Positions 1 through 62,875 of a stretch of DNA of 64,000 nucleotides are shown in pieces (position 1 is the stretch's first letter; every line of letters starts with the position of its first letter). This DNA comes from Termitomyces sp. T153 (taxonomy: Eukaryota; Basidiomycota; Agaricomycetes; Agaricales; Lyophyllaceae), in the NCBI GenBank assembly GCA_018296165.2, contig JACKQL020000085.1, positions 1-64,000 of the forward strand, written 5' to 3'. Both the position numbers and the translations under genes were made by a program. The notes beneath the pieces were generated by a model. It was not told the DNA's origin. It did no database searches and saw nothing but the letters and a program-made list of their open reading frames with translations.

Positions 1-1191
1 TCACGACCCGTTCCCCAAAGCCCCGCACATCGTCCATCAAACCCCCGAACCCCCAAAAGGACCCCCAACGCTCCGCCGAACTTCCGGCGGGTCGATGGCA
101 ACGACCCAGGTTACCACTTGCCCACGCCTACTTCGGCTAACTCCGACACATCCCCGGCTAACTCCGACGGCCCCCTGGCCAACTTCGGTGCCTGCCCCGC
201 AGCCACTGACACTTACCCTGGGCTTCCCAAACCCCGAGAACCACCCCCGCTACTCCTGATCTTCGCCCACCCATCATTAACTCAACACCCTGCTTCCTCC
301 GACCTATTCCGGAATATCACGACAACCTCGGAACAACCCGCGATCCCATCAACGTATCAGCGCGGCACGATCTTTGATCACAACCGACACCCGCCCACTC
401 CGTCAAGCCCCGCCAAGCCCCGCCGCCACAGCCGACGTACCCCGAAGTCCTCCGGTAGTCAGTATATAAGTCATCGAGTAGCTCTTCGTACTCCGGTCTT
501 GATATTGCTTAACGTTACCTATGGTCTGATTGTTTCCTCTTTGTGTTTCGTGTTCGTTTTCGTGTCTTTTTCTCCTTACTCTCAGTTTCCCGGTCTTATC
601 TCAGTCTCCCGATCTTATCTCAGTCTCCCGGTCTTATCTCAGTCTCCCGGCCTTGTCTCGTCCCCTTTTCGTTATCGTTCTCGTTATCGTTTCGTACCTC
701 CACTCGAATCTACTCTTGTTCCATAATGTCTCGTCCAACGCCGTCTCGGTGACGTCGTCTGACCCTTGTGCCCAATTCTTCATCAACCCTAACGACCTCA
801 CGAACTCCGCGATTATAATTACGAACCCCGACACCCCTTACCAGGTCCGAACCTCACTCTTCGCTCGGTCCCGGACTCCATCAACTCCAAATGATCTCCC
901 ATCAAACCCCGGCTCCACCCCCATTGATCACACAGCCACCTACTCCCTTGCTTCCGCAAATCTCCCGTACGGCCTTCTGCTTGAACCCCGCCAAGACCGT
1001 CTCATTTCCCCACAATCCGACTTCTCCGGACCTTCCCGGACCTGTCTGGATCACATCTCCCCAATTACCCGCGCAAACCACCAGGACCCAGAACGTCTTC
1101 GAGTGTCCGGTCACCAATGCAGGGGAATCACGCCCGCCTAGTAAGGACTCGCCCAGTGCAGCTGCGCCCCCGAGGTCAGCGGACCCTGACA
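1..1191 (+). repeat. 5' LTR of element A
   Basis: Direct repeat of 4980-6143. The first two bases (TG) lie just left of the window. It contains upstream imperfect repeats of a ggctaactccgac motif (about 130-175), a TATA box at 463-468, a predicted RNA start at 496 and a run of 19-bp repeats (tcttatctcagtctcccgg type, about 589-660) in the early transcribed part. A 29-bp stretch near 93-121 is absent from the 3' copy. The long open frames inside it are shared by both LTRs and have no recognisable protein features. Confidence 0.9.
463..506 (+). promoter_or_regulatory. LTR core promoter: TATA box and predicted RNA 5' end
   Basis: TATATA is at 463-468. The motif GTCTTGATATT at 496-506 starts 33 nt downstream, the usual TATA-to-start spacing. 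It is the exact reverse complement of the primer-binding site at 1193-1203, so both the promoter geometry and the self-priming rule put the RNA start at about 496. The same arrangement, with the same 33-nt spacing, is in the 3' LTR (5415-5420 and 5448-5458). Confidence 0.75.
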
Positions 1192-1192
1192 T

Positions 1193-1203
1193 AATATCAA
1201 GAC
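1193..1203 (+). other. Self-complementary primer-binding site
   Basis: AATATCAAGAC begins two bases after the LTR end (CA at 1190-1191). It is perfectly complementary over 11 nt to the predicted 5' end of the element RNA (496-506). In the Tf1/sushi group of Ty3 elements an 11-nt 5' RNA end folds back to prime minus-strand synthesis in place of a tRNA. Element B keeps the same site (about 9210-9221, minus strand) with one C-to-T change. Confidence 0.75.
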
Positions 1204-3638
1204 TCGACCTTACCCCGTCCGTGATGCCCACATTATCTCCGCACACACAATCAAATAACTCCAATGTCTATGGTCTACCCATGCCGGGGAACCCTTATGA
1301 TTCATACGGCCCTGCCCAATTTGCCGAGGCACATTGAGTCGTGGATCCGACACCAAACGTCCCCTCTGCTCCAGTTACTTTCATACAACGGCTCCCCCCA
1401 CGGACACCTTCCCCAGCTCACACCCAACTCCCAACCCCTCGCGCAAACCATCAACTCATCTTCCACCCCACCCCTACACTCCCCGCCAACTCCGCTCTCT
1501 CGCACAAAGTCGACCCCGACATCACCCAAAGAATAACATCCTAAGGCCTGGCGACCATCCGATCGAATGAGTAACAAGGTCTCCGGCACCGCGCCAGCCC
1601 TCCGACCCACAATAATGCCAACCTGCCATGGAACAGTCACCCACAGCGCGAGGATCGCCAGCTACAAAGAAACCACTGAGAACGCGCTTCCCCGAAGCCC
1701 GCCTGTGGATTCACCGGCCCCCCAGCAACCCCGCAGACCGACGAATGCGACTAATCACCAACAACATCACCAAACCCTATTATCGACCCCCTCCAAGGAA
1801 CTAAACCCTCCGACAACTAACCCCGAAACCATCGAAATCAAGCTCGAATCCACCACAGGACAAGAACCTCAGACCTAGGCTATGCTCCAACCCCGTGACC
1901 TGCTTCCGGACCTCGATCGATCGGCCGTCACCTCCGCCCAACAAATGAAGGGGCCCCGACTCCCCCGACCCGACCCTGACAACCCCGGAACAGGACCAAA
2001 ACATCCCCGAGCTTACACTCCGCCACCAGACTACGCCACCTCCCACGAAGGAATCCTCAGCATAGGGGCCACCCCGAACTAACTATAGGGAAAAAGGACC
2101 CTATACGAAGTAGTTCCCTAAGTGCTCTAAATTCGCTGACATGTTCATATAAGGGAGGGAGAAGCCCCACCATCATCCAGAAAACAACGATCGGCCGTTT
2201 AAGCGACCCGACAACCCCAAGGGCACGCGCTCCCATATCCTCAAAAGACCTCCCCCATCTGGCTCGACGACCCAAAACGACCCCGCGCCAGCCCGAAACA
2301 GTCCCACCCAGACCCCTCCGAACCCATCAACCCAGCTCCGGACCCTGGCGACACGACTCCAGGGCCTCCGCTCCGACCCCGACATCTGACCAAGAGGACT
2401 CACAGCGCCGGCTTGACAACGATGCCCTGGTAGCCCCAACTCCGCAACAGAAATCACCACCCACTCCGAACCCCGCCCCTACACCGGAATATGTCCGCCC
2501 GAACAGGGACCACATCACCGGGGCCTCCAGACAAGCTGGCAGTGCCTCCCCCCACTATCACCCCTGCACTTGCACAATCTCCGGACCGCTCCGGAACACG
2601 AATGAAGAGTAAATCCGACCCTGCCGCATCTCCCGGGGAGCCCCACTCCAGTGCCCCCCGCGGCCGACCTTCCCGCCGCCCCAACAACCAGGAACAACCA
2701 ACAAACCCCCACCAAGTGACCCTTGAGTCGACCCCGGGACCACCCACTTCTTCCCGATGAAGGAACCACCGACCCCCGAACCTCCGAACTCGAGGAAGTA
2801 TCAGAAATACGTAAGACCCCCTTTGTCCGCCGCGGGCTTACCTTTGGTCAGGAGAGCAATATCACGTAGATGACCCGGAACCCCAAATTGGGCCCCGGAC
2901 CCGAAGGAACTGGTTGGGACTGATCACCCCGCATCCTACCCCCTCGGTCATCGACACTCCGGAGCACACCAAAGCGCCACCCGAAGCAGGCCCGCCCACA
3001 GACGCAGCACTCCAGAACACAACCCCGACCCGGACCAACTATACTGCGAAGACGAACCCCGCCTCACCCAACCCCGCCAATAAATAAAAAAAGGCCCGCC
3101 CGCCTTCACCACCAATACCGACGCAAGGGCTAGACCATGGGAAGACCCCCATTACCCCCCGCCCACCGCACCGCCAAGACAACCAAAGCCCCGAACCCGT
3201 TGGGCGCCGTACAAAATTCAAAGGCCACCCTTTACTACCAAAACGGCGCACGTCCCCTACACCCCCAGTCGAAAATTTCCGAGAAACAAATCCAACGACA
3301 CCGCCCGAAATGCCGGGGACCCCACCGGAGAACTCCCACCAACCCCGACAGACCCCGGGAGCCCTCCTGCGATGCCCCGCCCCGTCCCGACCAACCCCGG
3401 GACTAGCCAGCGCAGACGGCACTAGCGGACGTAACCCCCGCCTCTGAACTCACTAGGGATTCCACTCCCTCTCACACCCCTGCGTGTTTCGCTTACTTCG
3501 CCCTCAGACAAAACTAAAAATCTCACTTCACACGCCCAGGGACCAAGAAGTGACATGTTCGCGTACAAAAAATCATATATACAATAGGCGGGAAGGCAGC
3601 AAGTCCAAGAGCGACAAGAAACGAGGCCCACACCCACC
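1204..3638. other. Element A interior without recognisable coding capacity
   Basis: The first roughly 100 bases resemble the leader and gag start of element B (a PDIISR..L.P peptide in the matching frame). Beyond that I see only short Pro/Ser/Arg-rich open frames broken by stops on both strands. No retropepsin DSG, RT YxDD, RNase H or integrase signature is present. I read this as non-coding remains or filler that replaced gag-pol. Confidence 0.5.
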
Positions 3639-4769
3639 TCACTCCCTCCCCGAACCTCCCGGAAACCCAACCCCCAGGTCGACCTCCATCTGGGCCCGCA
3701 CCACCGCTAGGATCTCCGCCAACCCCGGCAATGCCTCCCCCGCATCGGCCGCCACCTCCCACCACGACCCCGGGGCCACCGCATTGCGTCGCCGATGCCC
3801 CGCCAGCAACCTCTCCAACCGCGCCATTCCCTGCTGCAACTCCGGAGGCTGGACCGCGGACCCCTGCGTCAACCCGTCCTGAATCGACGCGAACGCCGCG
3901 GAGGCACCGTCCAAGAGGACCCGATGCTCCCGCACCCAGCCTAAACTCCGAAAATGAACCGTCAATAACGAACGAAGGAACGGGAGACAACTCACGAAGA
4001 ATCCCCGCGCGACCCGAGGCGGCCTTGTTGGCCAACCAATCCTCCCTCCGCCTCGCCGCCTCCAGCTCCGCCCACAACGCATCCCCCTCCGGAACTCGTC
4101 CCCGCCCCTCCGCTTCCCCCGCGGGTTGCCCCTCCACCTGCGCCAGACGCTCCCGCAGACCCCGCACCTCTAGCGCCCGCTCCGTCGCCACGCGCACCGA
4201 AGTATTCCTCTCCCGCTCCATCGCTTCCTTCTCCGTCCGCGCCGCGTCACGATCCTCCCTCGCCCGGCGGAGCTCCCCCTCCCGTACTGCCAACGACGTC
4301 GTCAAGGCCTCCACCTGCTTGCGAAGGAAGACCTCCGTGATTGAAGGAATCGGCGCGGAGGGACTCGACGACCGCTCCGAGGGAACGCCAGGGACAGGGG
4401 AAAAGAGGGAAGACTCGGGCGGCCCCGCCGACAACTCGCGCCCACGCAGCCTCTTGCTGGGTCCCGCCCCCGAGGGTGGGGAAGCTCGACGCTTTCCCCG
4501 AACCACCACCGAAGACGCCCCCTTCCCCTTTGGCAACGCGGGACGAAACTTGGTCCGCTTCGGAACCCCCGGAAAGTCCACCACTACTACTACGGACGAC
4601 TCTACCGGAACCCCGTTAACCATCCCGAAAAAAAAATTCGACAACACTTACGACTCCGGTCCCTAACGCTACCCCGGCGCCGACGCTCGAACTCCTCACC
4701 CCCACTGTCATACACCACCACCTCGTCTAAATCGGCGGGAGAAACCACTGGAACGCTGGGAGAAGACAT
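3639..4769 (-). CDS. Antisense, intron-containing coiled-coil gene carried by element A
   Basis: Opposite in strand to the element's own transcript. Three exons: 4769-4652, 4601-3996 and 3940-3639. Intron 1 (4651-4602, 50 nt) has GTAAGT..TAG ends and intron 2 (3995-3941, 55 nt) GTGAGT..TAG. Together the exons give 1026 nt, exactly 342 codons with stop, though the unspliced frames break. The product (341 aa) starts with an acidic stretch (YDSGGEEFERRRR), then a basic, nuclear-signal-like part (RGKRR, PSKRLRGRE), a Ser/Pro-rich linker, a coiled coil (about residues 140-225, rich in Glu/Arg heptads) and a helical C-terminus. The start is the first ATG (4769); the open frame runs further upstream, so another upstream exon is possible. 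No known family recognised. A decayed relative is at 38463-40240. The promoter would have to lie between the ATG and the 3' LTR or inside that LTR. Confidence 0.72.
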
Positions 4770-4967
4770 GACGAAATTTGGGAAACCCCGGGGCACGCCC
4801 AAAGCTTTAAATTGAGTGAGGAGGACCCTGACGAAACGGCGGCCGCGCTTCGACTTCGCCTCCCACGCCGCTATCACTCGCTGCGGATTGATCAATATTG
4901 CTCGGCTTCGACTCCCACGCCCCGCCGATCCCCGTCCTGCCCCGCGTCTCGAAGGGTCTCAACGCTG

Positions 4968-4979
4968 AAAGGGGGGTGA
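4968..4979 (+). other. Polypurine tract of element A
   Basis: AAAGGGGGGTGA lies directly before the TG of the 3' LTR (4980), where plus-strand DNA synthesis is primed in LTR elements. The equivalent site in element C (38390-38377, minus strand) reads AAAGGAAGAGTGA. Confidence 0.8.
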
Positions 4980-6143
4980 TGTCACGACCCGTTCCCCAAA
5001 ACCCCGCACATCGTCCATCAAACCCCCGAACCCCCAAAAGGACCCCCAACGCTCCGCCGAACTTCCGCCCATGCCCACGCCTACTTCGGCTAACTCCGAC
5101 ACATCCCCGGCTAACTCCGACGGCCCCCTGGCCAACTTCGGTGCCTGCCCCGCAGCCACTGACACTTACCCTGGGCTTCCCAAACCCCGAGAACCACCCC
5201 CGCTACTCCTGATCTTCGCCCACCCATCATTAACTCAACACCCTGCTTCCTCCGACCTATTCCGGAATATCACGACAACCTCGGAACAACCGCGATCCCA
5301 TCAACGTATCAGCGCGGCACGATCTTCGATCACAACCGACACCCGCCCGCTCCGTCAAGCCCCGCCAAGCCCCGCCGCCACAGCCGACGTACCCCGAAGT
5401 CCTCCGGTAGTCAGTATATAAGTCATCGAGTAGCTCTTCGTACTCCGGTCTTGATATTGCTTAACGTTACCTATGGTCTGATTGTTTCCTCTTTGTGTTT
5501 CGTGTTCGTTTTCGTATCTCTTTCTCCTTACTCTCAGTTTCCCGGTCTTATCTCAGTCTCCCGGTCTTATCTCAGTCTCCCGGTCTTATCTCAGTCTCCC
5601 GGTCCTGTCTCGTCCCCTTTTCGTTATCGTTCTCGCTATCGTTTCGTACCTCCACTCGAATCTACTCTTGTTCCATAATGTCTCGTCCAACGCCGTCTCG
5701 GTGACGTCGTCTGACCCTCGTGCCCAATTCTTCATCAACCCTAACGACCTCACGAACTCCGCGATTATAATTACGAACCCCGACACCCCTTACCAGGTCC
5801 GAACCTCACTCTTCGCTCGGTCCCGGACTCCATCAACTCCAAATGATCTCCCATCAAACCCCGGCTCCGCCCCCATTGATCACACAGCCACCTACTCCCT
5901 TGCTTCCGCAAATCTCCCGTACGGCCTTCTGCCTGAACCCCGCCAAGACCGTCTCATTTCCCCACAATCCGACTTCTCCGGACCTTCCCGGACCTGTCTG
6001 GATCACATCTCCCCAATTACCCGTGCAAACCCCCAGGACCCAGAATGTCTTTGAGTGTCCGGTCACCAATGCAGGGGAATCACGCCCGCCTAGTAAGGAC
6101 TCGCCCAGTGCAGCTGCGCCCCCGAGGTCAGCGGACCCTGACA
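4980..6143 (+). repeat. 3' LTR of element A
   Basis: 1164-bp direct repeat of the 5' LTR with TGTCACGACCC start and GACCCTGACA end. TATA is at 5415-5420, predicted RNA start at 5448 and 19-bp repeats at about 5537-5610. It is followed at once by element B sequence (6144 on). The left target site is outside the window, so the target duplication cannot be checked. Confidence 0.9.
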
Positions 6144-7195: not shown

Positions 7196-9221
7196 TCAGC
7201 CTAGGGGAAAACAGGGTGTAGGGTTGGCAGGGTTGACAGGGATCAAGGGTTGATTGCCATTGATTGCTCTGGTCTGCCAATTGGTGTTGTTGGAGGTGTT
7301 CCATGAGGTCTGCAGTGCCATGTTCTCACTCCAGTCTTCCCAGTAACCCATCATATGTGGTTTGCTTGGGTGTGAGATAAAGGACATCCTTGATCTATTG
7401 GGGCAGGGTACAACAGAGGGTGAATTGGAGAGCATTATAATTTCACCCAGTTTTATAGGCTTACCATTCAAATTGTATGATAAAGGTCATGAAGTGTTTG
7501 TTGTTGCATATTCAGAGGTTGAAGAGGTTCTCCTCTGCTTCTACTACAGTGTCAAAGATGCCAAACTTACTAGAGAATTCCTGGGTGAAAGTGAGCCAAT
7601 TGGAGAGTACAGAGTTGTTGGAATCAAACCAGAATAGCACAGTGTAATGGTCAAAGGCAATGCCCTGCAAATATGATACAGCACAGGCTACTCATGAGCT
7701 CTCAAGCTGAAAGGTAATGGGCTTAGCTTGAAACATTGTTAGACACTGTGTTAGAAAGATGTGCTACTTCTAGGGGTTGCAGCCAGTGAAAGGTTTGAGC
7801 TTTTGAATGTTGAGTTTTCCTTTCTGAGCCAGTGTGTTGTGAGTATTGTTCTGCATGTTTTGAGTTTAGGGCAGGGGTCTGGTGTTGTAGTAGTAATAGT
7901 AGTTGTTTCCATTTCTGTGCTGGGGAGGGAAGTTGTCCATGGCTGGGCCCCATCCTCCAGGTGGTCCACTATTAGAAGACCCTTTGCTGAGGGGGGTTGA
8001 TGGAAAAAGGGGGTCAGAGTGCCTTGGGGCCTGTGGGCTATCTTGGAGGGACTGGAATATTCTGGCAGGGCAGAGGGGCATTGACATGGGGGGTGTGGAG
8101 ATTGAAGTGGGAAGGTCTGTCTCAGGAAGGGCCACTGCATGGGGTGGGTTTGTCAGTGGAGCTAACAGGCTCATCAATATAGGAGAGAGTCCAGTTGTTG
8201 TTGTCAACATGCAGGGGCAGCTGTTGTGTATGGAGTTTGGGAGTAGCAGGTTGATCCCATGTATAGAAGGTACTAGGGACAGAGTTGGCCCAGGGATGAG
8301 TGGAGAGGGCCAAGGTGTGGGCAGCAGATTGGTCAAATGATTCCCTTGCAGGGTTGAGGTTCCTCAAGATGCTAGAGGCTGCATTAAGTTCTTCCTGCTG
8401 GTGAGGGATGGGAGGCAGGGCTTCACTTCATGTCCCAATGGGTTCCTCGCATTGCACATAGAAGGAGTGGGAGGGGTCCAGAGGATCTTCAAATGGGCAG
8501 GGGTTCAGACTAGTGTGGATTTCTTTAACCAATGCATGGAGCTCATTCTGTAAATTAGCATTAATTCCCAGAGTGCCTTGTGTAGTTTTGGGGAAGTTTC
8601 CTTGCAAGTAGCATTCATGGAAGTTGAGGAGCCAATCCGTCCAAACTTTCAGTGTTGTGGGGGTGTTGGAGTAGCTTAAGTTGATGAGGAGAGTGCACGC
8701 ACACCTTGCAAACTCCGTTGGGGAGAGGTGGAAGAAGTGGAGGACTTTATTGTGCTGTTGGATATAGGCTTTGACCCTTTGTTGCCTGAGGGAAGGGGGG
8801 ACTTGAGTGGAAAATGGCAAATAAGGAGGAGAATAATTATCTGGGTGCTCTGGAGGAGCTGGGGCTGCAGCAAGGGCTGGGTATGCATAGTAGTGGGTGG
8901 GGAGAAGGTAGGCAGAGTTGGGGGGTGCTGTGGAGTATCCTCCAGAGTATATGCAGGAGTTGTTGCCATTGGTGGGGAATGCTAGAGGGCAGTGCCAGAC
9001 CAGAGGTATTCCTTAGCTGATGGAGGGGGCATAGAACACCTGGTTGGGGTCAGGGGTCCAATGATGGGAAATGTACTGATCCACAAGGGGGCCTGGATAG
9101 AATAGGGCATATGGGTTTTCAGGGACTAGCTGACTGTAGGTGTTGGTTAGGTAGCCAGCAGAGTTGTATGTGGGGTTATATGCAGACATCAAGAGTGGAA
9201 TAAGGGAAAATCTTGATATTA
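7196..9221 (-). pseudogene. Element B gag-like region
   Basis: From the leader (9221 down) come an amino-terminal frame with PDIISR as in element A, a Tyr/Pro/Gln-rich segment, and then a helical capsid-like stretch (8820-8428) with phrases such as SPTEFARCACTLLINLSYSN and KVWTDWLLNFHECYLQGNF, in the usual place for Gag of Ty3 elements. The C-terminal part (about 7471-7196) contains a WEDWSENM segment and a Pro/Asn-rich tail. Stops and frame changes make it a pseudogene. No intact zinc knuckle was found in this copy. Confidence 0.5.
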
Positions 9222-10282
9222 TGTCAGGTTCCACTGACTACAGGGGCTCAGCTATACTGGGTGAGTCCTTATTAGGTGGATGCAATGTCCTGCACTTATA
9301 ACCTAGTGCTCTGGGGTTGGTGCAAAGTGAAGGGACTTACAAGGAGAAGCTAAGGGGAGTGGTCCAAGCAAGTCTGGAGTGGTCTGGGGAAGTCTAAGAC
9401 CAAGTATATTAGGTGTTGGGCTTAGGCGGGTGTCAGAAATAGGTTAGTAGGCACACAAATAGATTGCAGGGCAAGCAGAGGCTTCATAGGTAATGGAGGT
9501 GGAGCCAGAGTTTGATGGGGGATCAATCAAGACTTGATGGGTTCCAGGGCTGAGTGAGAAGTGAGGTCTGGAGTTGTCATAAGAATGTTTGGGGGTCATA
9601 ACACATGCGTGGAGTTCATACTGATGTTGGAGTCAAAAAGGACTTAGAGAAACAAAGGAAATAGAGACAATTGAGATGAGATGGAGGCAAGACAAGATGA
9701 GACTGAGAAAAGAGATAGATTTGAGACTAAAAATAGAAATAGAGGCAGAAAAAAACACAAGACACAAGTAACCAGTTAATGCAATATCAAGACTAGAGTA
9801 TGAGGTGTTACTCTACAGATTATATACTGACTAATGGAGAGCTCTGTGGGGCAGTGAGTGTGGCAGTGGAGCTTGATGGAGCCATGTGGAGTCAACAGGT
9901 GTTAATTGCAATTGAGAAGCAGGCTATAGCAATATTCGAATGGGATCAGTTGGGAACGTGGGCCACTCTGGTGTTGTCATGATGCTCCAGAGGAGGTTGG
10001 ATGAGTCAGAGTGGTGAGCCAGAGATGCATGACAGGGTCAGGAATAGTAGGGGAGGGTTCCAGGGGCTCAGGGGAGTTAAGGGGAGTGTCGATGGCTGTG
10101 GAGAAGGTTGTCAGAGTTAGCCAGAGGGCTGTCAGGGTTTGCCAAAGAAGCATTCAAGTTGCCCAGGGTGGCTGCAGAGGGTGTTCAATGGTTCAAGGTT
10201 TTGACAAGGCATTGGGGGAGGGACTCTGGGGAAGTGAGCAGGCTGGGAATGATGTTGGGAGTCCAGGGAGTGGGTCATGACA
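9222..10282 (-). repeat. 5' LTR of element B
   Basis: Reads (minus strand) TGTCATGACCC at 10282 and ends ..TGACA at 9222, so it is an element-A-type LTR with CG changed to TG. The TATA (in the 9821-9827 area) and GTCTTGATATT (about 9783-9793) are conserved, as is the internal primer site next to 9222. The sequence just outside is aatgc. Confidence 0.8.
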
Positions 10283-25752: not shown

Positions 25753-27939
25753 ATGTTTTCAACTGCTACTCGACATAAGTCGAGCGTTCTCTTGGACGTC
25801 CTCAGCCCCTCTCTAATGAACAGAGTCGCCCGCAAGTCCTTCTCACTCAATACCATTAGACTCAAGCCCGCACCTCCATTTCACGTCACAGAGCCCGGCG
25901 ATTCTCACAAGAAAACATACGTCGTCCCATCATCTCTCCGCGGCCTTGAAGCCGTCCAAATCGATCTGGCCAAAAAAGGCCAGGCTCAACTGCTTTCCGG
26001 ACGCGATAAAAACGATCCGAGCCAAGTTCTAGAAGCACTGAGCCTGCTTCACGGGCGGAAGCTCCTTCATGTTCTACCACCACCCCAGGTCGAAGATGGT
26101 TTACGGTTTCTTCTGGGAGAGTTGTCTACTGGCAAATTAAGCTTCGCCGATGAAGAATTATACGCGCGTATTGCTGCTTTACATGCTGCCAGCTCTATAA
26201 CTTCTTCCACGGATGCCTTATGTGCATTCTTGCTCCTGCGTCTCAAGCAAATGAATTTTACAGCTGTCATCGAGCTTTATGACGAATATTTGAAAGGTCT
26301 AAGGGGAAGAGAAATTTGGAATGTTGATGATGTCGAAGATGATGTTATCTCACAAGGTGCTGGCTTGGTTTCCGACGAACATGACAGGGGCATGCAGGTC
26401 ACGCAGGGACGCTTGACCTTACTCCTCATTGTCATTGCGGCACACGCAAGTCAAGACGCTTTCAAATCCGCATTGCAGACGTATCTAGAAACGGGAATAC
26501 GACTTTATCCTCCCAGTGTTGACTCATTTCTCGCTGCCAACTTTGCGCACAATCCAGCCTTTGCAGCTAAGTTCAAGTCCTTCATCGCTCGACTAGATCT
26601 AGCTCGGATGATCTCCCGGCCCACCTCACTCTCAAAGCATATTATGAATTTGGCGACTAGACATTCAACAGAGCTGCTCGAGAGTTTGTACAAGTCTATT
26701 GCTGATGGGCTCTTCGGACCAGACGCCTACATTGCTCCCGAATCGACTAAAAAAACGTCGAGTAAAATTGTTGCGTTAACCGAAGTCGGTTGGGTGACAT
26801 TGCTCTCCGCTTTCCTCAGATGTCGGCGTCGCGACCTGGCATCCAAGCTATGGGAAGACCAATTAACGCTCGGCATTACACCTGGAGTCTCATTGTGGAC
26901 GACTCTCATCGACTCATACGGTGCCACAAACGAAGCTGACGCTGCTGTTGCCTCTTGGAACATGATGAAAGCCCAGGGCATCCAGCCTGACGCACTCGCC
27001 TACCGAGCGTTGATCGCTACGTTATTTAAAGGCCGAAGACGTTCTGAGGCGTTGCGATTCTTCCAATCTTTCCAAAAATTACCTTTTCAGGGAGCTTCTG
27101 AGGGCCACTTTCTCTCAGTGTACAACACTGTAATTGATGGCCTTCTATCTTTCAACGACGAAACGGCAGTACAGGCCCTTCTTGAGAAGATGGAGAAACA
27201 CGGGCCCAAACCTGATCTCATATCTTACAATACTCTTTTAGCCTACTATGGGCGGCGAGGGAATTTCAAGAGCCTTGCTAGCGTCGTTGGCCGCATGGTA
27301 GAACTCAAAATCGCTGGAGACGTTTACAGTTTTTCTACCATTCTTTCTGCATTGCTTCGCGCCGGACGGGATGATGCACCAGACCTTCTGATCAACATTA
27401 TGAGAAAGCAAGGAATTCAGCCCAACGTTGCGACGTACTCGGCAATAATCGACCATCAATTGCAGGCCCCGACTATAAAGAATTTCGAGACTGTTATGAG
27501 ACTGTTGTATAGGATGGAGGAGGATGCTGCAGCGCAACCAAATGTGAAGACTTACACCTCCATTCTGGCGGGTCTCGATCGGATGGAGGGAATAGACTCA
27601 AGACGGAAGAACGAGTGGCGGAAGGAAATTACATGGCGCATGAAGAAACGTCGTATTGATTTGAACGAGGTGACTTATCATGTTTTAATCAGCTCCTCCT
27701 TGAAGCATCCACCGTCGGAGGGATTAGAGCAAGCCCTCTCATATTACCGGCAAATGCAACGACGAAAGCTGACAAATGATACTACTTGGTATGTTTTACT
27801 CCTGGGGCTTCTGCGAAGGAACAATTGGGCATTGGCGGAAGAAATTATCACGGATATGTTTGCATCAGGTCATCGACCTTCAGTTGCAGTGGAGCATTTG
27901 ATAGCCAAAATTCGGCAGCCGAATAAAGATGGTACATAA
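25753..27939 (+). CDS. Mitochondrial pentatricopeptide-repeat (PPR) protein
   Basis: Uninterrupted 728-codon frame, striking in an intron-rich region. The N-terminus (MFSTATRHKSSVLLDVLSP, many Arg/Ser, no acidic residues for about 40 aa) is a mitochondrial leader. From about residue 365 come at least five PPR units, for example TPGVSLWTTLIDSYGATNEA, QPDALAYRALIATLFKGRRR, KPDLISYNTLLAYYGRRGNF, GDVYSFSTILSALLRAGRDD and QPNVATYSAIIDHQLQ. PPR proteins bind organellar RNA, one base per repeat, for stability, processing or translation. The N-terminal 350 aa are helical and unassigned. Which transcript it serves cannot be told from the sequence. Confidence 0.92.
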   Translation: MFSTATRHKSSVLLDVLSPSLMNRVARKSFSLNTIRLKPAPPFHVTEPGDSHKKTYVVPSSLRGLEAVQIDLAKKGQAQLLSGRDKNDPSQVLEALSLLHGRKLLHVLPPPQVEDGLRFLLGELSTGKLSFADEELYARIAALHAASSITSSTDALCAFLLLRLKQMNFTAVIELYDEYLKGLRGREIWNVDDVEDDVISQGAGLVSDEHDRGMQVTQGRLTLLLIVIAAHASQDAFKSALQTYLETGIRLYPPSVDSFLAANFAHNPAFAAKFKSFIARLDLARMISRPTSLSKHIMNLATRHSTELLESLYKSIADGLFGPDAYIAPESTKKTSSKIVALTEVGWVTLLSAFLRCRRRDLASKLWEDQLTLGITPGVSLWTTLIDSYGATNEADAAVASWNMMKAQGIQPDALAYRALIATLFKGRRRSEALRFFQSFQKLPFQGASEGHFLSVYNTVIDGLLSFNDETAVQALLEKMEKHGPKPDLISYNTLLAYYGRRGNFKSLASVVGRMVELKIAGDVYSFSTILSALLRAGRDDAPDLLINIMRKQGIQPNVATYSAIIDHQLQAPTIKNFETVMRLLYRMEEDAAAQPNVKTYTSILAGLDRMEGIDSRRKNEWRKEITWRMKKRRIDLNEVTYHVLISSSLKHPPSEGLEQALSYYRQMQRRKLTNDTTWYVLLLGLLRRNNWALAEEIITDMFASGHRPSVAVEHLIAKIRQPNKDGT

Positions 27940-29072: not shown

Positions 29073-30163
29073 TTACGTAGTCTCGCGTTCCATTCGTCTC
29101 CGCTTCCTCCCCTGGTCCTCGATGATTAGTCTCTCTGCAGCAGACATTGGCGCTAAGCGTTTCTTGTCATTTATCTTCTCCGTGACAGTATCGCTCAAGG
29201 ATGTCACAGCCGTCTTGAAAACGTTCGGTTTTTTCAGTGGATTCAATTTTAAAGGATTTGCTGCAACTTTTAGAGGATTCTTGAGACTCAATAATGACGA
29301 GCCATTACTTTCGGAAGAAGCTACAGGAGTAGCAGATTTTGATGCGGAAAACGAAAGAACCACCTTCCCGGTGCTTTCTTCTCGTTTAAGGCCTTCCTCA
29401 CGAGTAGCTGTGTCATTTGTCTCTGGCGATGCCTCAACTTCCGCCGCGGCCCGTTCAATCTGCTCCGCAATGAGCAACCTTTCGCGCTGCTCGTCCGACA
29501 TCGTCGCCCGATCCTTCTTCATAGAAGCCTCCTGTTAAGTGAAAGAATGAGATTTGAAAGCATATAAACAACTGGCTGCCGCACCTGCTTTGCCAAAGCC
29601 TTCGGGCTATTATCGATCCACGCAATGAACCACCCCTTCTCAGTCTCGTCTACCCGGGCAATGCCAGAGCGCCCCAAGTGCTTGACAAACTCAGTGAGCG
29701 TTACCCAGCGCGTGGCGTTCATGTGAAGGTGGCTCTTGTCTGAAATGTACTCCTGATATACTCGATTTGCTTGTACACGCTTCGTCCCGAACCTGGATAT
29801 GTGAAGACAAAGTTCAAGAATAGATCCAAATAGTGTATAAAATCGGAGAACGCGCCTTCGAGAAAGAAGAGAGACAAATTCCGACTGAAATGTCATCGAA
29901 AAATCCGAGATGTGTCTCCCTGCGTTCTCCCCAACTACAAGCATCTGGCGCAGATGAGATTCGGACGTCATATGGCATTTGAATCCATTCTCGTCTCGGC
30001 ATTGCTTTTCGCAAACTTGACAGTACCACCTCAGACGTTGTAAGCCCTTCGATTTCATCTTGTTCGCAAGATATTTTGGGGTTCCAACTGGGTGTGGTAG
30101 GACATCAATACAATATGAAGAGCAAACAATAGGGTCAGATATCTCACCTTCAGCTCGAGGCAT
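29073..30163 (-). CDS. KIN17: KIN17 DNA/RNA-binding protein homologue
   Basis: Start at ATG 30163 with an intron after five codons (MPRAE / VGTPKYLANKMKSKGL). Then the C2H2-type zinc finger: LRWYCQVCEKQCRDENGFKC, with His in CHMTSESH. The winged-helix domain follows after a second intron: FGTKRVQANRVYQEYISDKS, HMNATRWVTLTEFVKHLGRS, VDETEKGWFIAWID. A third intron precedes EASMKKDRATMSDEQRERLL. The C-terminus is Lys/Ser-rich and ends RKRRRMERETT; the KOW/SH3-like tail of long animal KIN17 is not obvious, as in other fungal forms. KIN17 is nuclear, linked to pre-mRNA splicing, replication and the damage response. Confidence 0.93.
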
Positions 30164-30275
30164 TTTAGAGTAGCTGACTATTGAAATGTTTAGAAGGTCG
30201 TCTCAACGTTGGTATTTGGGCAATGACACAATTATGAGGCTGTGTAGTTCCGCGCCCCCCTTGCATGTTATCTGC

Positions 30276-42993: not shown

Positions 42994-44812
42994 TGATAAG
43001 ACCCTGTTCTTGCTAAGTACAGATTCCCAAGTTTTCTTATGTTTTGGTGACTTCTAGATTTCCCAGTGTTCATGTGATGTGACTATCATGTGATATTGTC
43101 ACATGTGATCTAGACCCTCAGCACACTGGCTGACCTTATCCTAGTGCTCTCTAGCACTCCTCCTAGCAAAGTCCCAATATTATTTCCTTTCTTGATATTA
43201 TTACTATAGTTTTGTTATTTCTTGATTTGGACTTATCTTCTTAATACATGCCACTCTAGTGACTGGCATACTGGCTGTAATTCCAGGTGTTGAATTAGCT
43301 AAAATTTTCTTAATACATGCCACCCTAGTGACCAGCATATTAGCTGTCATTCCAGGTCTTTAATTAGCTACACTTTGGGTTATTGAGTTGCTCCAGCCAT
43401 TCCTCTCAACTTGCCTATGTTGCTAGCAACCCTTTTTACTGCTATTGACTCCTTTTAGATTCATTGCCTTTACTGTCAGGTTTTGCTGACCCTGGAGGCT
43501 CATCTACACTGGGCAAGTCCTTACTAGGCAGATGCAATGTCCTGCACTAATAACTTGGCATTCAGGGAAGGTCTAGACTTTAGATATTTGTGAAGAGATA
43601 AGTGAGGGGAAGCAGTCTGAGCAAGTCCAGGATGGTCCAGGGAGGTCTAAGACAAGGTCCAGAGAAGGTTTGAACTTGAAGGGATGTCAGGCACAAGTCC
43701 AGGAGCAAGTACTGAAAGTGCAGGGCAAATGGAGGCTATGTGAGTAATAGGAGTGGGGCCAGAGTTTGATGGGGGATCAATGGAAGTTGATGGGTTTCAG
43801 GGCTAAGCAAATAGCAAGGTCCAGAGTTGGTTTAAGAAATGTTTCAGTTTTATAATCATAAGTGTGGAGTTTGTAATGGTGTTAGGGTCAAAAGGACTTG
43901 AACACAATGAAGGAAATGGGGTCAAACAAGACAAGATGGAGTTAAGACAAGATTGAGATGAGAACAAAAATAGATTCAAGCAGAGATACAAAATCATAAT
44001 GAAACAATAATAGAGATGGAGACAAGACAAGACCATGAGACTGAGATAAGGCTGTGAGACTGAGATAAGACTGGGAGACTGAGATAAAGAGAAATGTAAC
44101 ATGGAACACAAAACATGAGAGGGAAACAATCAGACTATAGGTAATGTTAAGCAATATCAAGACTAGAGTACAAGGTACTACTCTATGACTTATATACTGA
44201 CTACTGGAGAGTTCTGGAGGACAGCAAGTCTGGCAGTGGGGCTTGTTGGAGCTGTGCAGAGTTAACAAGTGTCAGTTGTGATCAGGGGATGGGCTGCAGT
44301 GATATTCTAATGGGATCAGTTGAGGACATGGGCTGTCCCAGAGTCATCATGATGCTCTGGAGTTGGGTTGTAATGCTTTGGAGTTGGTCAGGCAAACTAG
44401 GGTGATGAGCTGGTGACATATGCTGGAGTCAGGAACAGTGGGGGAGGGTTCCAGGGGCTCAGGAGAGTCAGGGAAAGTGTTGATAGCTGCAGAGAAGGTG
44501 TCAGAGTTAGCCAGAGGGCCATCAGAGTTTGCCAAAGAAGCATTGGAGTTACCCAGAGTGGGTGTCATGGGTCAACAAAGGTTGGGGGAGTTTGAGGGGG
44601 CATTGGGGGTATTTCCAGGAGAGTGGGGTGGCTGGAAACAAGGTCAGGGGTCCAGGGAGCAGGTTGTGACATTTACTTACTATATATACTGCCATGTTTT
44701 CTATATATCATCAAAGAATGGTACCTTGTTCTTAGCCCCAGACTTCAGATCTAAGTCTAGCAACTCTAAAGCTTCTTCTTTTGCTCTAGTGCCTTCTCTT
44801 TTGAGTTAGCAC
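42994..44812 (+). repeat. F2 LTR, split by a solo LTR
   Basis: Starts TGATAAGACCC at 42994 and follows the F2 LTR to 43473; it resumes at 44672 (tttacttactatatatactg) and goes on through ttcttagccccagacttcag to about 44812, where it leaves the common sequence. A short internal duplication (ccaggtgttgaattagctaa / tcttaatacatgcca block) is at about 43235-43380. It would be the 3' LTR of the F2 copy starting at 33853. Confidence 0.6.
43474..44671 (-). repeat. Solo LTR of the element A/B/C family with 5-bp target duplication
   Basis: Minus strand begins TGTCACAACCTGC at 44671 and ends ..CTGACA at 43474. It is bounded by TTTAC at 43469-43473 and TTTAC at 44672-44676, a perfect 5-bp duplication. 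The site lies in the conserved cttttacttactataaat segment of the F2 LTR. It retains TATA, GTCTTGATATT (about 44152-44162) and the 19-bp repeats (about 44030-44095), with CG changed to CA or TG. No internal sequence, so it formed by LTR-LTR recombination. Confidence 0.85.
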
Positions 44813-49673: not shown

Positions 49674-51597
49674 ATGAAATCTTTTCTCCCGACTTTGGTG
49701 AACATCGGTCGGCACAAAGTGCGATGTTTCCACCATACGGTTGTACGTTCTATGGGTCGCAGTGCAGAAGCTCAAGCTGAAGCACTCTCTAGTGCTGCGC
49801 TGCCTGCTCGACCTAGCGTTGCACCGGAAACGACAGACCCCACGAAGGCTAAGACCTTTGGAGACCTCGGCCTCCATCCTCCCATCGTCGCATCTTTGAG
49901 GGCGGCATTTCCGAATGTCAAAGCTCCGACGGAGACGCAAGCAAATTTCATACCAGCTATTCTGTCCGGGAAAGACGTTCTTCTGAAGGATGAAACGGGT
50001 TCTGGAAAGTTAGTCCGCAGTTCCCGGTGGTCTTTTGGGTTCTGACCTGACATGCTCAGATCTTTCGGACTTGTAGTTGCTCTTTTGAACAAGCCAAGGG
50101 TCTCGTCACCAGGCAAGAAGAAAAAGTCAACCATTCGACACATTACGTCTTTGGTTCTTGTACCTCACCGCGACCTTGCCTACCAACTTTTACACTGGAT
50201 CGAACGAATGACATCTGTGACAGATCCTCCTCCACTTATATCTACTATTGCACAAGTATTGGTACGCGACGGTGGCAATCATCTTTCGGACGGTCTTCGC
50301 CTTCTGCGTCAGACACCACCGCATATTCTGATTGGGACTCCGCAAGCAATAATGGACGTGTATAATGAAGCTCCTGAGGCCCTGCAACTGGACCATTTGT
50401 CCAGCGTTGTTGTGGATGAAGTTGACTATCTCATAGAGACCGTTCCTAACAAGGATCCCAATAAATCCTACTTCAAGGCGACGCTCAAGGCCAAGAGGAA
50501 ACTCCTGGCTCACCCTGGAGTGACACGGCAATTACTTGATATTGTTTATTCTCAGAGGAAGAAAACAAATGCAATGCGCAAGGATGAGCCGGGAATTGTT
50601 CAAGAATTGCGGCGGAGAGAGTTGCATATGTATCCGACAGAGGAACCACAACTGATTTTCTCCAGTGCTACATTAAGGCGACATCTGAATAATTATCTCT
50701 TTGAAGAGAGCGGATGGCTGAACAGAGACAATCTACTGAAAGTACGGGGCAGCGGAAATGCTTCCATTCAAACGAAGAAACAAGCGTTGGACACGAATCC
50801 TCATCATGGACTCGGAGGTACCGGCATCTCTCATTCTGTTCTACTTGTTTCAGAAGATGGCATCACGAACATTGCCGGTGCGAAACCGCCACCAGTCAAT
50901 CCTGCAGAAACGGATCACTTACATCCGATCGATCCACAAACGCTTTTCGCACCCACGGCAAAATCAGAGCCGGTGGAAACTGACCCCGATATGGTAAAAA
51001 GTAAGCGTCCAATTTATTCAAGACAGACAGAAGATTGATGTTCTTCTGTTCGAGAAAGAATACAAAGACACTCCATCGCCATTCAATCCAAACGCCATAG
51101 AAGCTATCGCAACTGCTTTTGCACTCGACGTACCATCAGTGGCGCTTTTAGTGCTACCGTCGTCGTCACCGGTTCAGCGTGCAGTGTATGAACTCCGGGA
51201 GATGGGAGTAAATGCTCACAGGCTGGACCTGCTGACTGGCGAGAAGGGCCGGTCACATCTGCTGAAGGGTGGTGGGAACGGGCAGGATAACCCGACATTG
51301 CTGGTTTCAACTCTGGCCACGACACGGGGGCTAGATTTGCCAGAGCTGACACATGTGTTCATTATGGGGATTCCTGATGGACCAAAAGTAAACGGACGGA
51401 CAATTGATGCATATGTACACCTTGCCGGACGTGTGGGGCGGTTTGGGCGCGGTGGGAAGGTGATCACGGTGGTGGAGAAAGAGGGGGACGTGGAGGAAGG
51501 AGAAAACAGGGAAAGAGGCGTGAGTCAGGGATCGAAGATGCTGAGGATTCTTGCGACTATAGAGGAGACGCCAACCGCATTTGTGCATTTTGATTGA
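49674..51597 (+). CDS. MRH4: Mitochondrial DEAD-box RNA helicase, MRH4-like
   Basis: ATG 49674 (MKSFLPTLVNIGRHKVRCFH), an Arg/Lys/His leader for mitochondria. Three exons: the first intron splits motif I (DETGSGK / S), the second joins DPDM to KIDVLLFEKEYK. Motifs: Q-like PTETQANFIPAIL, I LLKDETGSGKS, Ia LVPHRDLAYQ, Ib GTPQAIM, II VVDEVDYL, III FSSATL, V LVSTLATTRGLDLP, VI VHLAGRVGRFGRGG. Motif II is DEVD rather than DEAD, and motif VI has LAGR for HRxGR. Yeast MRH4 is needed for late assembly of the mitochondrial large ribosomal subunit. Whether the DEVD form keeps full ATPase activity is open. Confidence 0.88.
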
Positions 51598-60567: not shown

Positions 60568-62875
60568 ATGAGTAGTCCAGGATATTCCAGTCACTCTCGC
60601 CCTCCAAACTACTTTCCCTCTCTTATTGAGGAAAAGTATGGTCGTCGACATCATCATGCAAACTGGTTCCTGTATCTCACTATCCCAATACCTGGTGTTC
60701 GTACTCGACGGCTACGTATATTCTATCCCAACTTCCGACACCTTCACTTTCATGTCGTCACACGCTTTGGCCGTAGACTAGGATCCGCGATACTGTTCAT
60801 TGGACTCTTTCTATTTGTATTCGTCGCATTTACATGCGCAAAGAGATTCGGTATGCGGTCAAAGAAATGGCCACGTCCCTTCATTGGCGATCCCTCAACC
60901 CTTGTTTTTGAACGTGAGGACCTCCAACGAATATGGTACTGGGAAATATCCAGTGGTCACTACCCCAGCCGACGGCCAAGTAAGCTATTAACTTATTCAC
61001 AAATGCAGCATTCCCAAAGTTGCCTACAGTACCAGAGGAGATCGGTTTCCGTGCGGTTCCGCGTAATCCTGCTATACCGACCCAACGCGCCGTATTTCGT
61101 GGTCCACTAGGTTTTGCAAACTCAACACGAGGTGTTGGGCCCAACCGCACGTATCTGGAGTTGAAGCATAAACCTGGTAACACGGCGTATCCTCCACGCC
61201 CAGTACCTGGGAGTGTGGCGGACTTGGACATTGTCATGGACAATTGTGATTTTTCGAAAACGAAGGTGCGTTGTGCCCAATCACGGCGCGTCTTGTTGCT
61301 CATATATGTCAAGTATGTGCGTGACTGTTTGGAAGTTCTTAGGGTCGGCGGTGGTTTGGACACTGGTAATCGGCTTCGAAGAGGGCCGCTAGATGACATG
61401 AAGTATATCTACGTTGAAGACGCAGACGTCGTTAAACCGATTCCCCCCTATGAACCAATGTCCAGCCATATCACAGTTGATGGAAGCGCAGCCCAAAATA
61501 ATCTTGGTACAATTAATATGGAGAAGCCACCCATTGCACTTCCGCCACCTTTGCAGCATCGGCCCTACGCTACGCTCTCTGATCCATGTGACTCTGATAA
61601 TCCCCGCTTGTTCCACATGTTCTGGACCGGGCCTTTCACCGACAAGCCGTACACCGCCCTGCTTTCTTTCCTATACACACAGAATACTGGACTGCACTTG
61701 CAGACTCCAGATAAATCCATCTGTCGCCCACAATTTTGGATGTGGATTAATCCTGGTCCAGCAGCAGCTGTTCCAAACCCCTCTGCCTTGCGTGATATGT
61801 ACAGTGAACTCAAGCAGAATCCTTGGGCATCCCCTTTCCTCCACCCAAGATTCAATGGAGTAATCTTCTTCAAGCTTTGGAATACTACAGAACAGCTGGA
61901 CGGCGTTCCGGAGTTAAAAAATGAGTGGCGAAAACGAGATCTTTTCAATTCTGGTGGAAATATCTTTGTTGTTCCACAACAGGACATCGATGAAGGGGGA
62001 GAAACCATCAGTAAGCCCGATTCTGATAATCTTCTCCATCGAGCAGGCTCAAAATCATCCTCGACGTATGACCGTATGTCTGTCATTCTCTCTGATATGG
62101 CACGCTTTGTCTTGTGCCATCGCTTTGGAGGTACATATCTTGACGCTGATACGATATTCTTACGTGACTGGGAGGAGTTGTGGGGCTGGAAAGGCGCTTT
62201 TGCATACAGGTGGTCTCGCTTGCCAAGATATAACACTGCAGTCCTCCACATGAACAAACATTCGGCATTGGGCACATTCCTCTTCCGAACAGCTCTCAAA
62301 AATGATTTAGATTTCCATCCAATGACTATTTCACGATATACGCAAGATGCTCATCTTGAAGAGCTCCTTCTTCGACTTCCTGACGCTTTATTTGATTCCG
62401 CATGGCTTAACACCGAAAGTTTCCAACGGGATCGACCTCCACAGCCATATTTCACTGAGTGGGTTTCAAAATCAACTATCCCAAATTTTCACTGACTTTC
62501 TTCAAGCTTTGCGCACTTCTTCGAAACACCTAAGGTCAACAGCGCAGCACCTCAAGCAATGGGTGTCGAAGGTTTCTTCAAGGGTGCCTACTCATATCAT
62601 TTTCACAATTTCTGGTAGGAGATTCTCAACAATCCCTTTGTATTTGTCTCAGCAAGAGATCTTTTAGGTGGAAGCCATTTGACCCTCATCGAAATTGGCC
62701 CGACTTGGGAGAACGATTCATAGCTGGTGAACGGCAAGCACGCAATACTAGTGATATGTTAATTGAGCCGTCTGATCGTGAAGATCTTGACTGGGCGACA
62801 GTCCTGAAACGGACGTTTGAAGCATACATTCGTGGGGAGCGACCCAATATGTACGGGGAATGGCTTCAGTGGTAA
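60568..62875 (+). CDS. GT32-type glycosyltransferase (DXD), type II membrane protein
   Basis: ATG 60568 (MSSPGYSSHSRPPNYFPSL). A cytosolic basic tail is followed by one membrane helix at about residues 72-92 (LGSAILFIGLFLFVFVAF), giving Golgi type II topology. After a stem region come NPRLFHMFWTGPFTDKPYT and the catalytic FVLCHRFGGTYLDADTIFLR with its DXD (DAD), then WEELWGWKGAFAYRWSR and YNTAVLHMNKHSALGTFLF. Introns near 60978, 61266, 62457 and 62610; the third uses GA/gtgggt so that FTDFAHFFETPKVNSA reads through. The C-terminus has a HNFWWKPFDPHRNWPDLG phrase. Such enzymes (OCH1/SUR1 relatives) add mannose or galactose to glycans; the acceptor cannot be told. Confidence 0.85.

Follow-up and report, generated by a model that had tools for sequence, protein, structure and literature searches.

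What does an intact gene, divided by introns and lying on the opposite strand, do in a retrotransposon that has no recognisable gag or pol? The question is raised by element A, an LTR element at the left end of the 64,000-nt stretch of DNA of Termitomyces sp. T153, a mushroom farmed by termites, that we analysed (the window). Our best explanation, to which we give as a whole a probability of about 0.6, combines a conserved family of accessory genes, an element A that is derived from a carrier of such a gene, and a product that would act as a nuclear regulator.

The contig begins inside the 5′ LTR of element A, whose first two bases (TG) are missing. We compared the window copy with 39 other loci; these 40 copies were scored among 560 candidate places and chosen by gene similarity. 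The features of the element, from left to right, are the following.

1-1191, plus strand: 5′ LTR of element A, a direct repeat with 4982-6143, its right end taken from the copy comparison
1192-1206, plus strand: PBS position, directly after the 5′ LTR; the LTR-PBS junction also occurs upstream of integrase in partner elements, with 2 mismatches
1192-3638, plus strand: internal region without recognisable gag or pol (no Pfam match; diversity 0.025 over 40 copies)
3639-3940 (302 nt), minus strand: exon 3, the conserved C-terminal segment and stop, from the spliced reading, the copies and the alignment
3941-3995, minus strand: intron 2, 55 nt, GTGAGT...TAG, from the spliced reading and the copies; it matches an insertion site in the relative P0153
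3996-4601 (606 nt), minus strand: exon 2, with the NLS-like segment and the probable coiled coil, from the spliced reading, the copies and the model
4132-4341, minus strand: residues 127-196, a long helix and probable coiled coil, from the model of the 341-aa homologue P0003
4441-4497, minus strand: residues 75-93, a bipartite basic NLS-like segment, its GPSK columns (nearly) invariant in both alignments
4527-4530, minus strand: point of the missing six-cysteine segment, between residues 64 and 65, from the alignment
4602-4651, minus strand: intron 1, 50 nt, GTAAGT...TAG, from the spliced reading and the copies; it matches an insertion site in the relative P0147
4652-4769 (118 nt), minus strand: exon 1, with its ATG at 4769, from the spliced translation and the copy comparison
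4770-4967, minus strand: leader from the 3′ LTR to the ATG, its relatedness seen in N-terminal run-ons in all three subfamilies
4968-4979, plus strand: polypurine tract (PPT) AAAGGGGGGTGA, read directly, abutting the 3′ LTR
4980-6143, plus strand: 3′ LTR (TGTCACGACC...GACCCTGACA), from the direct repeat with the 5′ LTR and the copy ends

We take the sense orientation of element A to be plus because a TATATAA sequence stands in its LTR at 463-469, because the purine tract at 4968-4979 precedes the 3′ LTR, and because of the strands of the sister genes and integrase described below. The PPT-LTR junction is found at 671 places in the genome with up to 2 mismatches. As the first-pass annotation had claimed, gag and pol are not recognisable: none of ten open frames, of which nine lie in 1264-3422 and the tenth is the plus-strand frame 3554-4663, had a Pfam match at E ≤ 0.1. 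The LTR pairs of the copies have TG...CA ends, and perfect 5-bp target duplications flank 26 of the 30 scorable copies; the other ten of the 40, the window copy included, have an end that is outside the fetched or assembled sequence or was not found. The LTR pairs of the copies are mostly 95-99.8% identical, with a lowest value of 92.2%. Element A is a mobile, non-autonomous unit without recognisable gag-pol.

The LTRs have some further characteristics. A tRNA-primed PBS usually begins with TGG; the sequence after the 5′ LTR at 1192-1206 (TAATATCAAGACTCG) does not start in this way. Tandem 19-nt units (TCTCAGTCTCCCGGTCTTA-like) occur in both LTRs, at 580-659 and 5532-5630, about 110 bases after the TATA-like box. 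Elsewhere in the window, 9211-9833 and 43470-44209 are 80-97% identical to parts of the element A LTR in reverse orientation, and are the remains of other elements. Host-type genes identified by Pfam are a PPR protein (25753-27936, plus strand), KIN17 (29522-30202, minus strand) and a DEAD helicase (50046-51035, plus strand), with a weak DXD glycosyltransferase match at 60984-62492 (plus strand). Rfam and tRNA scans of the 64-kb window found none, and a promoter and terminator scan of bacterial type, whose model does not suit a fungus, returned nothing usable.

The antisense gene was exactly reproduced on splicing. When two canonical introns are removed from the minus strand between 4769 and 3639, 1026 nt remain, corresponding to 342 codons (341 amino acids and a stop), which agrees with the three exons and the introns of 50 and 55 nt that had been claimed. 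The claim that the frame breaks in the unspliced sequence holds as well: neither intron length is divisible by 3, and the longest minus-strand ATG frame between 3600 and 4980 has 147 codons when unspliced, 309 with one such intron and 341 with two. When up to two such introns were allowed, the best of 500 dinucleotide-preserving shuffles attained 320 codons, and none reached 341. The region has a GC content of 65%, and the plus-strand frame 3554-4663 opposite the gene has 370 open codons. Because this GC-rich opposite strand is also open, openness alone is weak evidence for the antisense gene, and the case for it is carried by homology and by the contrast between exons and introns. The plus-strand frame was itself considered as a true gene and rejected, with a pN/pS of 1.35 (over 3731-4663) and no Pfam match.

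We then have the copies to compare. Thirty-nine of the 40 are ungapped relative to the window copy, and the remaining one (L025) is one base longer. Of the 39 ungapped copies, 38 retain the full set of four splice sites, the exception (L022) having one changed donor, and 37 are free of premature stops, which occur in L011 and L033. Over the 40 copies, the exons have a mean diversity of 0.006-0.009, which is 2-3 times below the 0.018-0.020 of the introns; the values for internal non-coding sequence and for the LTRs are 0.025 and 0.023-0.026. The flanks are not a fair control, because choosing copies by gene similarity lowers the diversity of the gene; only the introns and synonymous sites are. 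Using CpG-aware rates from 1300-3600 and leaving out the column of the L025 insertion, we observed 81 variants in the exons where 237 were expected (0.34) and 16 in the introns where 23.8 were expected (0.67). The leader stretch 4770-4981 contains 29 variants, compared to 51 expected.

At the codon level, the variants in the antisense frame comprise 34 synonymous and 45 non-synonymous changes and 2 stops (pN/pS of 0.61, P = 0.021). The same ratio is 0.67 for the antisense frame shifted by one, 0.73 for another plus-strand frame and 1.35 for the overlapping plus-strand gene frame. The first-pass annotation had named a dN/dS near 1 as the outcome that speaks against the gene; the value we obtained lies below it, though with P = 0.02 and two other frames at 0.67 and 0.73, codon-level selection among these young copies is only weakly shown. 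One further copy (C9:241139-242098) is stop-free over residues 41-341 in a match that exceeds the protein by about 19 codons, as would be expected if its intron 2 did not break the frame.

Relatives of the gene are numerous within Termitomyces. The spliced protein matched 175 proteins at E ≤ 1e-3 among 7,995 candidates scored, and all 120 listed are Termitomyces hypothetical proteins. Two sister queries, representing a second type (P0072) and a third type (P0148), gave 118 and 79 matches, partly the same proteins and all named Termitomyces. Relatives with open frames, whose absence had been named as a sign against the gene, are annotated in other Termitomyces assemblies, and six of them have exactly 341 amino acids. 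Among the matches listed in the three protein searches, whose reach is relatives sharing short exact words, none lies outside Termitomyces, and an IMG/VR scan with the second-type protein P0072 gave no match.

Aligned proteins of the second type are 54-62% identical to P0003 (341 aa, element-A type), and those of the third type 36-43%. Both sister types have an extra segment with the motif C-x2-C-x6-C-x15-C-x2-C-x6-C, which the aligned element-A-type proteins lack. Of 225 fetched proteins, all from other Termitomyces assemblies, 58 have the six-cysteine motif, and in 57 of these the loop is exactly 15 residues long; none of 4500 shuffled sequences has the motif. Two relatives, P0147 and P0153, have insertions that resemble unspliced introns at the two element A intron places; therefore, both intron positions are common to relatives of about 40% identity. 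Many sister-type matches begin just before the first cysteine, which suggests that these types may have a further intron there. The leader upstream of the ATG is related as well, as can be seen from P0001, P0098 and P0146, whose N-terminal ends run on into it.

To locate these genes with respect to integrase, we crossed 118 element-A-type rows of genomic matches (one per scored candidate), 90 second-type rows and 91 third-type rows (of 92 scored) with matches to the integrase core (rve; 150 scored of 1,065 candidates) and with the first 100 of the 671 PPT-LTR junctions. In 75 of the 91 third-type rows, rve lies on the opposite strand at a distance of 1,542-1,646 bp, and in none is it on the wrong strand. 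The third-type relatives are found where the first-pass annotation had proposed to look for them, antisense between integrase and the 3′ LTR. No scored rve is in reach in 16 of the 91 third-type rows and 89 of the 90 second-type rows; because 150 of 1,065 integrase candidates were scored, its lack in single elements means little. A scored rve within 6 kb accompanies 3 element-A-type rows out of 118, at the scattered distances of 4,150, 5,800 and 5,964 bp. By a hand count, 87 of the 90 second-type rows have 1-13 stops, some of which may be in introns read through; with these stops and a scored integrase near 1 of 90, the second type looks as if it were an older wave of elements.

The ends of the elements connect element A to an autonomous partner. 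The PBS occurs at 971 places in the genome with up to 3 mismatches. An element-A-type gene is reached from each of the 59 listed places with 0-1 mismatch, two of which also have rve within 12 kb (at 4,410 and 10,929 bp), and 28 of the 29 with a listed PPT-LTR junction have it at 3,223-3,787 bp. From the 41 listed places with 2 mismatches, eight lead to rve at 5,581-5,614 bp, eight to a third-type gene at 7,358-7,483 bp and four to an element-A-type gene, while seven have a PPT-LTR junction at 8,688-8,813 bp, which is the size of the partner's internal region. The near-constant place behind integrase and the shared PBS and PPT ends make the antisense gene a standing part of the autonomous partner, for which the label Ty3-type is based on the rve match and the order of the genes. 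As a shortened relative of this partner with the same ends, element A is classed as non-autonomous: it has no recognisable gag-pol, and its PBS-side and PPT-LTR ends are common to the two. Among the 59 PBS places listed at 0-1 mismatch, seven (on C32, C39, C52, C85, C98, C251 and C256) stand only 1,144-1,182 bases from a contig start, and contigs therefore often break at or inside element A-type LTRs.

The data show that, in Ty3-type Termitomyces elements, the stretch from integrase to the 3′ LTR houses a conserved family of accessory genes, which contain introns and are read in antisense. They also show that element A has kept its LTRs, PBS position and PPT together with an intact antisense gene, which is about 40% identical to the partner type and is without the six-cysteine segment. 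The claim of a real antisense gene with introns is upheld by copies that keep its splice sites and frame, by exons that are less diverse than introns, by annotated relatives and by the sister gene behind integrase.

We next consider the protein. The pattern G[PS]SK[RWQ] is present in 162 of the 225 fetched proteins, and the basic segment of this GPSK region, which the subfamilies have in common, may be read as a nuclear localisation signal. In the model of P0003, pLDDT is 76-85 over residues 141-190 (model mean 48.9), and the model of the full form has a long helix at residues 272-368 that is confident over much of its length; outside the helices, both models are mostly of low confidence. Of the basic and coiled-coil parts that had been claimed for the product, the basic part is plain in the sequence, while the coiled coil corresponds only to a moderate-confidence helix in the P0003 model. 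When its fold was compared with those in the PDB, the full-form model had no match at E ≤ 0.001, and the sequence comparison with solved structures gave only three weak matches (best E 0.35). Zn_clus (PF00172) is the commonest Pfam match, found in 25 of 60 members at E ≤ 1 with a best E of 0.002, and its bit scores in 10 proteins are below the gathering cut-off (best 18.5, compared to 21).

We propose a mechanism in which a promoter within the 3′ LTR, or adjoining it, would drive transcription of the antisense gene towards the interior of the element, opposite to gag-pol, and yield an mRNA that is predicted to be spliced. Its introns would persist through retrotransposition because they would be invisible to the sense genomic RNA. 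The product could then enter the nucleus via its basic motif and oligomerise by its coiled coil. The partner's full form would use its cysteine cluster to bind DNA (the LTR or host chromatin) and would modulate sense transcription or integration, and the short form of element A, acting via the coiled coil and C-terminal segment common to both, may either pair with the full form or compete with it. Regulation of the element or its autonomous relatives would fit with the presence of the gene in those relatives. Taken further, the autonomous elements would encode a spliced antisense cysteine-cluster regulator, and the parasite a version without the DNA-binding part whose oligomerisation part is constrained, forming a dominant-negative or tuning system; we offer this extension tentatively and think it doubtful in its full extent.

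Several other mechanisms could account for such a locus. The active agent could be the antisense RNA, pairing with the genomic RNA and feeding or blocking dsRNA silencing, and the frame a GC-rich by-product. Antisense transcripts of other LTR elements are discussed along these lines in passages of PMC7264820, and openness is cheap here, as the 370 open codons of the opposite strand illustrate. However, constraint on the exons exceeds that on the introns (81/237 compared to 16/23.8), the subfamilies have retained the splice sites and the places of the introns, and protein motifs are conserved at about 40% identity, and we consider an RNA agent unlikely. A neutral passenger, in which the non-autonomous element carries a disused old gene and its copies are intact since they are young, is to us equally unlikely. 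The modest pN/pS with its P of only 0.02 agrees with such a passenger, as do the stops of the second type, hand-counted and perhaps partly within introns read through, and the many amino-acid changes in relatives that resemble C-to-T decay. Yet the element-A and partner types differ at about 60% of residues, while 37 of the 39 ungapped element-A copies are stop-free and, by a hand count, exon 2 is stop-free in 50 of the 91 third-type rows. With stops making up 5.8 of 236.6 random changes, we estimate that several hundred unconstrained changes would have left about 10 stops per copy.

A host gene could also have been captured once in antisense and have a host-directed role, for example as a host transcription regulator. 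Its introns would require capture at the DNA level or in antisense, and the six-cysteine spacing resembles that of fungal Zn2Cys6 regulators, but no relative outside Termitomyces was among the matches listed, in a short-word search where host and element genes are not distinguishable; we regard this origin as considerably less probable than either the RNA or the passenger. The sense strand of element A could, at last, have been misread, making the antisense gene a gag-like sense gene, since its position, about 210 bp in from one LTR, is the one expected for the start of gag on a reversed strand. The TATA-like box and the PPT point the other way, the PBS-side and PPT ends are common to the partner in that orientation, and gag in a reversed element is ruled out by the partner's integrase, which is on the opposite strand in all 75 rows with one in reach. 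The chance of such a misreading is very small. A conserved accessory gene with a nuclear regulatory product is the reading that we compare to known systems below.

The six-cysteine segment of the sister types may have a counterpart in fungi. Zn2Cys6 regulators have the spacing C-x2-C-x6-C-x(5-12)-C-x2-C-x(6-8)-C, with a usual loop of 5-12. Like these Gal4-type proteins (PF00172), the sister types have two C-x2-C-x6-C halves, followed by a basic segment and a coiled coil; unlike them, they have a loop of 15 and score below the Pfam cut-off, and the element A form is without the motif. The element itself belongs to the non-autonomous LTR elements (LARD-type), with which it shares LTRs, a PBS place, a PPT, 5-bp target duplications and the lack of recognisable gag-pol. 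Unlike the others, it keeps an intact, split and apparently protein-coding antisense gene.

Antisense genes have precedents in several LTR elements, including the gene brtn of Boty, which was reportedly described by Zhao et al. 2011. The first-pass annotation had named plant examples and knew of no spliced one in basidiomycete elements of this type, and its remark on prior art was incomplete: an antisense gene is already known in a fungal Ty3 element, as brtn in the Boty-like elements of the ascomycete Botrytis cinerea, and the passages concerned do not mention brtn introns (PMC7264820, PMC8365987, PMC4227169). Boty resembles the Termitomyces family in being, according to those passages, a fungal Ty3-type element with an extra antisense gene. 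It differs in its ascomycete host, whereas the Termitomyces genes are split by introns and include one form with a cysteine cluster and another that is borne by an element lacking recognisable gag-pol. No Botrytis protein was among the matches listed in the three protein searches.

In plants, antisense genes behind pol are described in parts of PMC7264820 and PMC11963269. The plant aORFs (TRP28 and gene23) agree with the Termitomyces family in place, orientation and presence in most copies; gene23 has nuclear localisation, TRP28 has predicted DNA binding, and non-autonomous members occur in Retand too. The TRP28 domain is of another kind, for which Pfam gave no match in the Termitomyces proteins, and the main texts of the two papers (PMC7264820, PMC11963269) do not contain the word "intron". 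In the portions of a review and of the Retand paper that bear on this point, the antisense accessory genes of LTR retrotransposons are without established function.

Spliced antisense products also come from the 3′ LTR inward in HTLV-1 (HBZ) and HTLV-2 (APH-2), where HBZ acts via a zipper and turns down sense transcription, and APH-2 inhibits even without a classical bZIP, as given in sections of PMC3736048. The same direction and splicing are proposed for the Termitomyces gene, with no homology claimed. HTLV is a retrovirus whose intron lies between an LTR exon and the main exon, and for Termitomyces, the promoter and repression are predictions. By analogy with APH-2, which inhibits without a classical bZIP, the element A form without the cysteine cluster could still act.

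A literature search by title and abstract opening, covering few subscription papers and thus no proof of absence, found no spliced antisense gene in a basidiomycete LTR element among the papers listed. As far as this search shows, the conserved introns in a basidiomycete antisense gene, the six-cysteine form of the autonomous type and the trimmed non-autonomous form are new. Beyond what the known systems offer, the Termitomyces genes have conserved introns and include both a candidate DNA-binding form, which belongs to the autonomous element, and a shortened one, which belongs to its relative without recognisable gag-pol. This opens a direct test of whether such genes regulate their own element and whether a parasite element uses a trimmed regulator to control or exploit its partner.
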